Part shown: positions 12,159-47,213 of the stretch, in pieces | Numbering within the stretch: position 1 is the first letter of the stretch | Layout: every line of letters begins with the position of its first letter | NCBI GenBank assembly: GCA_025916675.1 | Contig: CP098402.1 | Location: 2,971,205 to 3,035,204 of the forward strand | Length of the DNA: 64,000 nucleotides | Source of the DNA: Phycisphaera sp. | GTDB taxonomy: Bacteria; Planctomycetota; Phycisphaerae; Phycisphaerales; UBA1924 | Reading direction: 5' to 3' | Notes under the pieces: generated by a model | What the model saw: only the letters and a program-made list of their open reading frames with translations | The model's database searches: none | What the model was told of the DNA's origin: nothing | Made by a program: the position numbers and the translations under genes

Positions 12159-12262
12159 GAGAGGCATCAGGCACTGGGCATCAGGCACAAGGGCAAGAGC
12201 CTTTGGTCGCCAACTTCTTGCTCTTCTCTAATGCCTAGTGCCCGATGCCCGATGCCTCCTCT
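12159..12262. repeat. Heptad inverted-repeat element 1 (GGCAnnn)n
   Basis: The left arm is a run of seven-base units: GGCATCA, GGCACTG, GGCATCA, GGCACAA, GGGCAAG (12163-12197). The right arm (12229-12256) is the inverted set: TAATGCC, TAGTGCC, CGATGCC, CGATGCC. A GAGAG/CTCTT pair flanks each side. The whole can fold as one long imperfect hairpin of about 45-bp arms and a 30-nt loop. It fills the gap between the DUF1444 gene and the PabA-like gene. A related element occurs at 22057-22232. Confidence 0.75.
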
Positions 12263-21260: not shown

Positions 21261-22064
21261 TTATCCCCCTATGCCCTCCGAAGGCGGGCCACCAGAGGCC
21301 CGATCCCGCGCCAATCGCACCCATTCGCGCTGTAAGAGCAACCCAACGGCCTCGAACGCCACGAATCGTTCATATTCGGGCATGCTCCGCAGGTACCGCT
21401 CCCACCGCAACGAAGACACTGCCTCGCTGCGACCCTGGGCATACCGCCGCACCCGCATCTTCACGTCGTGGTCGCGCCCGTCGAGCACGAGCATCACCGA
21501 ACTGGCCGGCCCGCGGCCCAGGGACCGCTGCGAGCCGAAGTGGTCGTACTCGGTCGGCTGCTCACGGAGTTGCCTGGTGTCGAAGACCAACTCCTCTGCC
21601 CCAGCGTTTTCAAGGGCACCCGGCCGGGCGTAGATACCAAGCGCGATGCCCATGACCGGCTCGTACGGGTCGTATGCCGTAACGCTGCCCACGATGACAC
21701 CGTCGGCACCCAGCGTTCGGGCCAGGCGATCCAGGTCCGCCGGGGTCTCTGGATAGCCCATCCCCATCGCCGCCATCGCGTCCAGTGTGCGATTCAGCGG
21801 CAACGCCCGCAGCCCCCGCGCCTGGGTGATGGTCGCCACCAGCGTGTCGCTCACTTCCATGGGATTGACAGCCGACGTCCCACTCTCGTTGCGTAGCGGC
21901 ACCACCGCCCACACCGGCTCGGCCGGGGTGCTGGCGTACGGCGACAACAATTGCTGCGGCGGACGCAACGGGTCTTGCTTCGCGCAGCCCGCGATGACAA
22001 CGCAAAGGGCCAGCACCCAACCAAGCCGCGTGCCTACGCACGCGGACCAACGGGGGAATGGCAA
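21261..22064 (-). CDS. Putative lipoprotein, unknown function
   Basis: About 267 aa. The N-terminus has a hydrophobic stretch WVLALCVVIAGC ending in a lipobox. The mature part has VWAVVPLRNESGT, then LVATITQARGLRALPLNRTL and LARTLGADGVIVGSVTAYD. This is the pattern of outer-membrane assembly-type lipoproteins of the CsgG/TolB-N class that open with AVxPxxNxSG. The second half contains a long charged helix. The start is uncertain: TTG 22064 gives a credible lipoprotein signal but lies within heptad element 2; GTG 22016 would remove the basic n-region. It may be an old gene whose 5' end was altered by the repeat. Confidence 0.68.
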   Translation of the reverse strand: MPFPRWSACVGTRLGWVLALCVVIAGCAKQDPLRPPQQLLSPYASTPAEPVWAVVPLRNESGTSAVNPMEVSDTLVATITQARGLRALPLNRTLDAMAAMGMGYPETPADLDRLARTLGADGVIVGSVTAYDPYEPVMGIALGIYARPGALENAGAEELVFDTRQLREQPTEYDHFGSQRSLGRGPASSVMLVLDGRDHDVKMRVRRYAQGRSEAVSSLRWERYLRSMPEYERFVAFEAVGLLLQREWVRLARDRASGGPPSEGIGG

Positions 22065-22232
22065 TTGGCAATTGGCAGTTGGCAATTGGCCCGAAACCGG
22101 GTGCCACGGCTTCTCGTCTTCGCAAGCCGTGGTCGGGCACCCGCACGGAGCACCGCTTGCCGAAGACGGACAAGCCGTGGCACCCAGCAGCCCAACTCTT
22201 CTCCATTGCCTATCGCCCAATGCCCATTGCCC
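22057..22232. repeat. Heptad inverted-repeat element 2 with nested inner inverted repeat
   Basis: The left arm is GGCAATT, GGCAATT, GGCAGTT, GGCAATT (22060-22087). The right arm, inverted, is CATTGCC, TATCGCC, CAATGCC, CATTGCC (22204-22231). Inside are GGGTGCCACGGCTT (22099-22112) and its exact reverse complement AAGCCGTGGCACCC (22172-22185), plus CGTCTTCGCAAGC facing GCTTGCCGAAGACG. An extra AAGCCGTGG occurs at 22124-22132. The nested arrangement could form a cruciform or a branched RNA. It overlaps the unclear 5' end of the lipoprotein gene. Confidence 0.75.
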
Positions 22233-22263
22233 TCTTCTCATCCCCCATTGTTGCACCAAAAGA

Positions 22264-22288
22264 CAACGCCCGGAGTTACCGGGCGTTG
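22264..22288 (-). terminator. Rho-independent terminator of the TolB-like gene
   Basis: A perfect 10-bp stem CAACGCCCGG with a 5-nt loop. On the minus strand it is followed by TCTTTTGG. It sits about 40 bp past the stop of the TolB-like gene. Confidence 0.8.
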
Positions 22289-22326
22289 AGTAGGGGTAAG
22301 TTAAGGCTTCAGCCTGAAGTACAGGC

Positions 22327-44738: not shown

Positions 44739-47213
44739 ATGGACATGCTGCTTTCGCTTGCCACTATCGCGCCCGACGGCCTGTTCAGCCGCGTGTTCGC
44801 GCTGCGCGAGCTCGGGTTCGGCCAGGACGGCGTGACGCTCGGATTCGAGCGACCGCTGCCCACGTGGGGCTGGGCCCTCGTGGTCATGGGGTGCATTGCG
44901 CTGGGCTGGTGGGGCTACCGAAAGCTCGAGGGCCCCAAGGCGGCGCGGTGGTCGCTCGCGCTCGTGCGATCCCTCCTGCTGTTCATCCTGGTGGTGCTGG
45001 CCCTCGGCCCGCGACTGGAGCGTGTGAACGAAAGGCTGGAACCCGATTGGGTGCTGGTGCTCGTCGACCGCTCCGTATCGATGCGCGTAGCCGATGCCCC
45101 CATCACGATCGACGGCAACGCGCGCGCCACGCGCGACGAGCAAGCCCGTGTCCTCCTCGACCGTCACGCGCCGATGTTCGCCGAGCTCGCCGGCGATCGC
45201 GAGATGGTCTGGCTCGGCTTCGACGCGGCCGCTTTCGATTTACGCGCGCGATCGGCAATCGACGACGAAGGCGTGGGGCCGCCCGCACTCCCCGAAGCTG
45301 ACGGCCGGCGGACCGCGCTGGGCGCCGCCATCTCGGGTGCGCTCACGCGCGCCGCGGCGCGCCCGCTGTCGGCGGTGGTCGTGCTGAGCGATGGCCGGTC
45401 GATCGACGAGCCATCGGCCGCGGTGCTCCGGCGGCTCGTCGGCGAGCGCGTGCCAGTGCATGTCGTGCCGCTGGGCAGCCCGCAGGCGGCAACGGATGTG
45501 GCGATCGTGCAGGCCGTCGCGCCCGAGGCGGCGTTCGCCGGCGATCAGGCACCCGTGAACGTGCGGCTCGATCGCCGGGGACCGGCTTCGGGCTCGTCGG
45601 GTGTGCTGCGACTCGAAGATCGCACAACGGGCGAGGTCATCGATCAGGTCCGCATCGAAGCGGACGACGAGCGTTGGCAGGATGATGCGGGCGAGGTCAT
45701 CGATCAGGTCCGCATCGAAGCGGACGACGAGCGTTGGCAGGATGATGCGGCCGAGGCATCGCTCGTGGCCGGCGAGCTCGCCGCGGGCGAGGCCGATTGG
45801 GTGGTGCGGTTCGTGCCCGACACGCCCGACCTCTTGAGCGAGAACGACCAGGCCAACCTGCGCGTCCGCGTCGTCGATCGGCCGCTGCGGGTGCTGTATA
45901 TCGATGGCGGCCCGCGATGGGAGCGGCGCTACATCACCAGCATGCTGCTGCGAGAACCGAGCGTGCGGTCGAGCTCGCTGCTGCTGGCCGCGCGGCGGAG
46001 CTTCATCGAAGAGGGCAACGTCACCATCGGCTACCCGCCCACGAGCGACGAGGAGTGGGCCGAGTACGACGTGGTCATCATCGGCGATGTCCGTTCAGGA
46101 CTGTTCAGTGCCGAGCAGCTCGACCAGCTCCGCGAGCACGTGGCCAGCCGGGGTGCGGGGCTGTTGTGGATCGGCGGCACGAGCAACACGCCCGCGAGCT
46201 GGCGCGGCACGCCGCTGGAAGACCTGCTGCCTTTCCGCATGGACCAGGGGTCGGGCATTGCCACCTCAAGCCAGCCCGTCGTGCTGGATCGGACCGCTTC
46301 GGGCGAGCGCCTGGGTGTGCTGCGTCTCGATGAGACGCTGTCGACGTGGCCCGAGTATCTGAGCGACCCGCGGACGGGATGGAACCGCTTCTGGTGGTGG
46401 CAGCGCATCGAAGAGGGCGCGCTCAAGCCCACGACCGAGGTGCTGGCGCGCTTCGAGCCGGCCGAGCAGGCCGGCGCGGCGATGCCCGCCGTCATGACGA
46501 TGCCCTACGGCGCGGGACGTGTGGTGTATGTTGCCACCGACGAGGTGTGGCGGTACCGCTACGCGCGAGGCGAGCCGCTGTTCGAGCGGTTCTATCTTCC
46601 CTTGGTCCGCATGCAGGCGCGCGGGCGGCTGGCACGCACCGGGGCCGAGGCGGCCCTGAGCGTGTCGCCCAGGCCCGCGCTCGTGGAGCGACCGGCACGC
46701 GTCGAGGTGCGGCTGCTCGACCAGTCGCTGGTCGACCGGCGTTTGCCGTCGGTCCGCGCGCAGGTGCGGCCCATCGACGACGACAGCCAGTCGGGCATGG
46801 CCCAGACGCTGACCCTGGGTGTCGAAGACACCGGCGCGCGGAGGGCGCTGTCGCAGGGATACGCGGCCTCGTGGCTGCCGACCGAGCCGGGCACGTACGA
46901 GATCATCGTCGACGAGCCGTTGCTGGCGCCGCTGGGATTGCGAATCGAGTTGGAAGTGCTCGCCGATAGCGACGAGCTGCGCGACCCGATGGCCGACCAC
47001 GAGTTACTGGCCTCGCTGGCCGAACGCACCGGGGGGCGCGTGCTGGGGATGGACACGCTCGGCGAGCTCCCCCAAGCGTTGCCCAGGCGAGAGGTGGTCA
47101 TCGCCGGGCAGCCCCAGGTAGAGCCGTTGTGGGACCGGCCCATCGTGCTCGTGGTGCTGCTCGTGCTGCTCGCGATGGAGTGGGTGGGCCGGCGGCTGAT
47201 CCGACTCATCTGA
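44739..47213 (+). CDS. VWA-domain membrane protein with in-frame 60-bp tandem duplication
   Basis: 824 aa. Two N-terminal membrane segments (about 45-62 and 72-90) are followed by a VWA domain with the MIDAS motif VDRSVSMRV, SAVVVLSDGRS and IPVHVVPLG-like segments, and later a glutamine-amidotransferase-like fold (VLYIDGGPRWERRYI through GLLWIGG). A final membrane segment is near 805-820. Residues 298-317 (GEVIDQVRIEADDERWQDDA) occur again at 318-337 with identical DNA, 45631-45690 and 45691-45750. The copy adds 20 residues in frame and breaks no visible motif. The ATG directly follows the upstream gene's stop. Confidence 0.88.
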   Translation: MDMLLSLATIAPDGLFSRVFALRELGFGQDGVTLGFERPLPTWGWALVVMGCIALGWWGYRKLEGPKAARWSLALVRSLLLFILVVLALGPRLERVNERLEPDWVLVLVDRSVSMRVADAPITIDGNARATRDEQARVLLDRHAPMFAELAGDREMVWLGFDAAAFDLRARSAIDDEGVGPPALPEADGRRTALGAAISGALTRAAARPLSAVVVLSDGRSIDEPSAAVLRRLVGERVPVHVVPLGSPQAATDVAIVQAVAPEAAFAGDQAPVNVRLDRRGPASGSSGVLRLEDRTTGEVIDQVRIEADDERWQDDAGEVIDQVRIEADDERWQDDAAEASLVAGELAAGEADWVVRFVPDTPDLLSENDQANLRVRVVDRPLRVLYIDGGPRWERRYITSMLLREPSVRSSSLLLAARRSFIEEGNVTIGYPPTSDEEWAEYDVVIIGDVRSGLFSAEQLDQLREHVASRGAGLLWIGGTSNTPASWRGTPLEDLLPFRMDQGSGIATSSQPVVLDRTASGERLGVLRLDETLSTWPEYLSDPRTGWNRFWWWQRIEEGALKPTTEVLARFEPAEQAGAAMPAVMTMPYGAGRVVYVATDEVWRYRYARGEPLFERFYLPLVRMQARGRLARTGAEAALSVSPRPALVERPARVEVRLLDQSLVDRRLPSVRAQVRPIDDDSQSGMAQTLTLGVEDTGARRALSQGYAASWLPTEPGTYEIIVDEPLLAPLGLRIELEVLADSDELRDPMADHELLASLAERTGGRVLGMDTLGELPQALPRREVVIAGQPQVEPLWDRPIVLVVLLVLLAMEWVGRRLIRLI
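45631..45750. repeat. Perfect 60-bp tandem duplication
   Basis: Two identical 60-bp units lie head to tail inside the VWA gene. No base differs between copies and the frame is kept. Confidence 0.97.

Follow-up and report, generated by a model that had tools for sequence, protein, structure and literature searches.

Element 2, at positions 22057 to 22232 of the window (the whole 64,000-nucleotide stretch analysed here, from the 3.6-Mb genome of a Phycisphaera sp., G000), is a composite of a gene-less, IVS-like palindrome built of heptad repeats, a REP-type BIME in the loop of that palindrome, and a REP-A-like palindrome adjoining it. The outer heptad palindrome probably belongs to an IVS-like mobile family, as a member without the gene. 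We favour this reading because the only PF05635 (S23p) gene of the genome sits between heptad arms and inverted arms surround this gene at most other loci sampled, because the elements are mostly absent in close relatives at the sites compared and heptad counts are higher in genomes with PF05635, and because the IVS of Coxiella shares the plan and the predicted fold of the gene-bearing copy in G000 closes through its arms.

Results

Anatomy of element 2

The first-pass annotation described four GGCAnnn heptads per arm around an exact 14-bp inverted repeat and a second, imperfect one. Each arm does hold four units, one of those on the right reading GGCG instead (Table 1), and together they form inverted repeats at the two ends, about 28 bp long and with mismatches. 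The 14-bp repeat is indeed exact; at 94% it can be lengthened to 17 nt (22099-22115 and 22169-22185). The imperfect repeat CGTCTTCG.CAAGC is also found, with a 1-nt bulge when read by eye. Element 1 has arms of the same design, as had been noted. The predicted RNA folds are strong for element 2 on both strands (z = -6.1 plus, -5.9 minus) and for element 1 (z = -6.6).

Table 1. Coordinates in the window of element 2, its parts and its sister element
Feature	Position	Strand	Remarks
Sister element 1	12162-12257	+	arms of the same kind as those of element 2
Open frame, lipoprotein-like (by eye)	21261-22259	-	no Pfam match; open across all of element 2
REP-A-like palindrome left of the arm	22023-22047	+	beyond the two-mismatch limit of the REP-A count
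Left heptad arm, four GGCAnnn units	22059-22090	+	GGCAATT GGCAATT GGCAGTT GGCAATT
REP-B-like hairpin, half of the BIME core	22099-22138	-	ends counted by eye; layout repeated at G000 2347113, 86% identity
REP-B-like hairpin, other half of the BIME core	22148-22185	+	ends counted by eye; shorter matches at G000 2175106, 663777 and 1320821
Right heptad arm, inverted, four units	22203-22232	-	GGCAATG GGCATTG GGCGATA GGCAATG; one unit GGCG

No S23p/PF05635 ORF lies within 22057-22232, and we therefore file the element as IVS-like and not as an IVS. The minus-strand frame that runs through it has no Pfam match, and its passage through the element was set aside as chance. The insertion point corresponds to the orthologous start of the same frame. 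Element 2 adjoins protein frames and does not lie in a 23S rRNA helix; Rfam at gathering scores returned two tRNAs and no rRNA match over the window. By the insertion point is another hairpin, CAACGCCCGG...CCGGGCGTTG (window 22269-22293), which is conserved in G001, G003, G004 and G005 and is perhaps a terminator. Farther along the window, 45628-45761 is a 60-bp tandem repeat of 2.2 copies at 97%.

Heptad repeats in the genome and at orthologous sites

The window contains 11 heptad-triplet matches (at most one mismatch) versus 1.0 expected, the largest of 100 shuffles giving 4, and the whole genome has 69 exact matches versus one for the reversed pattern. These fall into at least 32 loci, a figure that counts stretches around matches and leaves out match 3503650 (there are 33 clusters, two being the arms of one gene-bearing locus), which bears out the dispersed family with differing cores proposed from the two elements. 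The units belong to two classes, AT (GGCAATN) and TC (GGCATCR, GGCACYG), and the sequence outside the first unit is G+A-rich, 16 of 37 arms having AGA no more than 8 nt away and 8 of 37 having GAAGA no more than 12 nt away. A script pattern recovers the arm order GGCA...TGCC at 11 gene-less loci, the remainder being single-armed or in another order.

The first-pass annotation had also proposed a comparison of orthologous loci as a check on mobility. The outcome is mostly absence from close relatives (G001-G006, which include the genus members compared), except that G006 carries degenerate heptads at the place of element 2. The same site is a short gap without heptad arrays in G001, G003, G004 and G005, and holds unrelated sequence in G002; because of the heptads in G006, element 2 may instead be older, once shared and since lost in some of these genomes. 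Among the part of the heptad loci at which empty sites were read, element 1 is absent from all four genus members examined (G001-G004), its gap in G001 and G002 holding other sequence, and G004 lacks elements 345 and 763, its empty sites for elements 1, 345 and 763 being free of heptads. For element 1836, G003, G004 and G005 show no comparable array, and the stretch in G001 is shorter and partly similar. Inspection by eye of elements 1 and 763 revealed no target-site duplication. Heptad matches vary widely among the close relatives, with 198 in G006, 69 in G000, 39 in G002, 12 in G004, 4 in G005 and 2 in G003, G001 standing outside the samples used for this count and for the Y1_Tnp, PF05635 and RVT_1 searches.

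Many of the G000 heptad elements begin a few nucleotides past an apparent stop codon (by eye), a placement that, together with the strong folds, would suit palindromes selected as bidirectional 3'-end signals, either terminators or mRNA stabilisers. However, a signal under selection fits poorly with absence at most orthologous sites compared and with gene-less arms lacking paired changes (see below); moreover, no U-run was seen at element 1 or 2, and both element 345 and element 2 precede an apparent start codon. We consider this explanation very improbable.

The REP/BIME core and the RAYT genes

The core of element 2 is a separate module, a BIME made of two inverted REP-like hairpins. Each half has GAGC or GACC at one end and a GAAGAC loop, and the two are inverted with respect to each other (by eye). 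The 103-nt core is matched by G000 2347113-2347202, with 86% identity along one strand and 80% along the opposite one; the sequence printed around this copy shows no heptads. Dispersed short palindromes in inverted pairs, with copies elsewhere and a palindrome resembling REP-A nearby, are features shared with RAYT-associated REP/BIME elements. Unlike these, the core carries GAGC or GACC at its ends (by eye) and neither GTAG nor CGTC, the published REP end tags according to the accessible part of PMC3733652, and heptads occur where Y1_Tnp is absent.

REP-A is present in 46 copies in G000 (at most two mismatches), versus none for the reversed control, and stands in inverted orientation on both sides of a RAYT-like Y1_Tnp gene at 1762330. 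The genome also has a second Y1_Tnp gene, at 97170 (L088, G000:C1:95670-98897), this one flanked by a different inverted palindrome, GAGCCCCTCGC...GCGAGGGG. The search for a RAYT-like transposase suggested by the first-pass annotation thus found the gene, its REP-A flanks and a REP/BIME core in element 2, and left the heptad arms unexplained. It could be argued that the whole element is a RAYT-mobilised miniature element of REP/BIME type, the heptads having been acquired with it as flanks: besides the BIME core, the adjoining REP-A-like palindrome and the gene between inverted REP-A copies, six other loci have a REP-A copy no more than about 60 bp from a heptad array, and across 121 genomes of the order the heptad count rises with the presence of Y1_Tnp (p 6e-5, ignoring phylogeny). 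But profile searches for Y1_Tnp (PF01797) gave no match in G006, G002, G004 or G005, all of which bear heptads and the first of which is the most heptad-rich genus member sampled; REP-A counts (46 in G000, 1 in G006) do not track heptad counts (69 and 198); and the BIME core occurs without nearby heptads at 2347113. We therefore reject RAYT as the driver of the heptad arms, which go with PF05635 instead, and regard a RAYT origin of the whole element as improbable.

The PF05635 gene and its arms

The sole PF05635 match of G000, at 3452891-3453331, lies between heptad arms with a GAAGA edge. This sister locus has the S23p/PF05635 ORF of a 23S rRNA IVS and sits in groES|groEL, between the Cpn10 and Cpn60 genes, and not in a 23S rRNA helix. 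Its product, P0001, matches PF05635 at 1.4e-37 and TIGR02436 at 1.9e-36 and has a solved relative in 2gsc (5e-29), and in the predicted RNA fold the arms close the insert (z = -4.0). The accessible part of PMC10053308 relates PF05635 to Avd of diversity-generating retroelements, and P0001 does match the Avd model weakly, at 27 bits, but below the 80-bit cut-off. A profile search for the reverse transcriptase of such retroelements (RVT_1, PF00078) found no match in G000 or G002-G006, which removes RVT_1 as a resident helper, and among the 121 genomes RVT_1 does not go with heptad count (p 0.75, ignoring phylogeny).

PF05635 matches are found in 67 of the 121 genomes, in 63 above the curated cut-off. 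For 29 of the best 30 loci, one per genome (L287, which lacked the motif used, was dropped), the median score of the locus's own inverted flanks is 47, versus 17 for mismatched pairs (n=174; flanks of other PF05635 loci and not of other gene families) and 16 in direct orientation. The own score exceeds the 95th percentile of the mismatched pairs (25.7) at 27 of the 29 loci and their maximum (49) at 11; the two misses are L293 and L300, the latter with a stop codon inside the gene. At least 17 of 21 positions match at lag 7 in 27 of 58 flanks, at lag 14 in 15, at lag 8 in 8 and at the other lags from 3 to 15 in none; period 7 is dominant, period 8 is found in some arms, and units differ by locus. 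A set of 16 plasmid loci (14 cyanobacterial, plus Gemmatirosa and Azospirillum), which we picked from 38 hits, mainly from their top half, gave a similar median of 48 versus 16. All except L312 and L323 exceed the 95th percentile (27), just two of the 16 exceed the highest mismatched pair (59), and strong lag 7 appears in 18 of 32 flanks. The association of heptad arms with PF05635 is general across the loci sampled, in the order and on plasmids.

At 13 of the 14 annotated plasmid loci the two neighbouring genes share one direction (in an incomplete gene table); the PF05635 gene has that direction in 10 of them and the opposite one in 3. Three are in cas operons, cas6|cas4 twice and cmr2|cmr3 once (L312, L315 and L317, the first being one of the arm misses), which may explain why the 23S rRNA IVP is listed among CRISPR-linked proteins in the accessible part of PMC10910872. 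For order loci, neighbour frames were sought on the strand of the gene, so that they are no test of direction; by Pfam, the delta and alpha subunits of ATP synthase flank L278, one per side, and one-sided neighbours are class II ribonucleotide reductase (L279), DnaJ (L285) and HisRS (L296). The element at L305 (G005:C1:100571-103876) has 8-nt units and is apparently inside a DNA polymerase III alpha-type gene, of which the downstream part matches the finger domain and the upstream part was assigned by eye only. On the well-supported branches of a protein tree (bootstrap not settled, 17 rows unlabelled), the groES|groEL copies and the ribonucleotide reductase copies each require at least two label changes, pointing to repeated entry, or to entry and loss.

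Where PF05635 loci share a site, their arms pair better within than across loci, with scores of 39-50 versus 13-42 for groES|groEL, 42-68 versus 12-14 for atpA and 17-51 versus 13-16 for ribonucleotide reductase, and hence pairing is mostly kept while the sequence changes. The 12 gene-less elements analysed have an own-partner median of 30 versus 23 overall, but within each class the own partner is no better than the others (own scores of 28-36 for TC and 24-37 for AT; cross medians of 35.5 and 28.5), which gives no sign of compensatory changes. The earlier suggestion of a structured RNA is therefore borne out by the fold, but not by any excess of paired changes in gene-less arms.

Among the 29 PF05635 loci of the order, the best match to the arms of element 1 is the G000 locus itself (46 and 44; shuffled maximum 21 and 22). 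The left arm of element 2 matches L281 (39) and L306 (35), where the shuffled maximum is 19, and the right arm matches L306 (40; shuffled maximum 25) and, only just better than shuffles, L281 (26); the two loci come from one family. The arms of element 2 are unlike those of the PF05635 gene of G000 (12 and 18), and thus its tie to PF05635 comes via the architecture and via arms in other genomes, not via its own genome's copy.

Heptads and PF05635 across genomes

Heptad count is higher in genomes with PF05635 (p 2e-7 over the 121 genomes, ignoring phylogeny; 0.024 in the 36 of the family). At least 20 matches are found in 20 of the 67 genomes with the gene versus 4 of the 54 without, so that 4 of the 24 heptad-rich genomes lack it. 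A pattern scan of named genomes gave at least 118 heptad stretches in many phyla. The profile finds a PF05635 gene in only two of the 118 loci listed, with 20 and 105 nt between gene and array, and L146 reads by eye as a third, its gene cut by the end of the stretch; most heptad arrays therefore stand without PF05635, and we discarded the named loci as a source of such genes.

This scarcity of the gene (116 of the 118 listed loci without a profile match) would be expected if the palindromes arose in place, by 7-nt replication slippage and fold-back templating, with PF05635 genes merely tolerating or attracting them. According to the accessible part of PMC4679880, long simple repeats are most often heptanucleotides in the majority of the genomes surveyed, and slippage has been proposed for them; the long arrays in G006 and G082, the many single-armed loci and the absence of covariation in gene-less arms also agree with this explanation. 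Slippage alone, however, does not readily account for the direction of the partners: among the 118 listed loci, exact inverted partners lie downstream in 13 and upstream in none, and with one mismatch allowed in 29 and 16 (10 and 9 in reversed-motif controls), with examples in Rhizobium, Methylocystis, Bauldia, Chitinophagaceae and Saprospiraceae. Nor does it account for inverted arms around PF05635 at 27 of 29 and 14 of 16 loci, or for the heptad-free empty sites of elements 1, 345 and 763 in G004. We find this explanation unlikely. Arrays of at least 10 units are found at G082:C2:25017-25097, where the listed units are nearly all GGCAATC, and at G006:C16:50213-50450, the arrays of G006 being mixed.

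Discussion

Cyanobacterial STRR heptanucleotide repeats were reportedly described by Mazel in 1990. Like the heptads studied here, STRR and TAACTGA repeats are 7-nt intergenic tandem units, but the accessible part of PMC4679880 describes heptamers as direct repeats, with polymerase slippage cited and one inverted case, whereas our heptads form inverted arms tied to PF05635. The closer likeness is to the 23S rRNA IVS of Coxiella, Leptospira and others. As far as the accessible part of PMC4990558 goes, the IVS is sporadic in distribution and has terminal inverted repeats forming a 28-bp stem, an S23p ORF with AGAAGA and then heptamers at its start (GACAGAT in Coxiella, in numbers that differ between strains), and excision by RNase III. 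Unlike the IVS, heptad elements lie in gaps between protein genes, and the G000 copies are mostly gene-less. A literature search that left subscription journals largely outside its scope found PF05635 and heptamers together in PMC4990558 only, and neither heptad-armed PF05635 elements in protein operons nor gene-less relatives of them.

In the IVS-like reading, the complete form of the element would sit in a short intergenic gap and consist of an edge often rich in G and A, some four 7-nt units forming a stem of about 28 bp, an S23p gene (PF05635/TIGR02436, coding for a four-helix-bundle protein) and the same units inverted. In the RNA, the arms would pair into a long hairpin that encloses the insert, like the stem that RNase III cuts in the 23S rRNA IVS; placed between stop and start codons, such an insert might therefore do little harm. 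The heptad elements described here may likewise be cut by RNase III. Recognition or maintenance of the arms would probably fall to the S23p protein. Copies without the gene could arise by its loss, or by spread in trans, and the number and triplets of the heptads would then drift by slippage. Element 2 would probably descend from such a gene-bearing element; at 22057-22232 a separate REP-type BIME would have come into the loop, with the REP-A-like palindrome beside the left arm. Several results weigh against the IVS-like reading: no mobility enzyme was found, gene-less arms lack paired changes, the arms of element 2 differ from those of the gene-bearing copy in G000, the profile finds the gene in only 2 of the 118 listed loci, 4 of the 24 heptad-rich genomes lack a match to it, and Y1_Tnp also tracks heptad count.

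More tentatively, the IVS of rRNA might be the best-known corner of a widespread family of mobile hairpins in operon gaps (groESL, atp, ribonucleotide reductase, cas), with the heptad palindromes that lack the gene, and perhaps also cyanobacterial heptanucleotide repeats, as its non-autonomous remains, and with S23p as a nucleic-acid-binding protein of mobility or maintenance that needs neither RAYT nor RVT_1. Such a family would offer one explanation for the function of S23p/TIGR02436, for the origin of the rRNA IVS and for inverted heptanucleotide repeats across bacterial genomes and, if this is true, the common annotation 'four helix bundle protein' would become a testable family of mobile elements.
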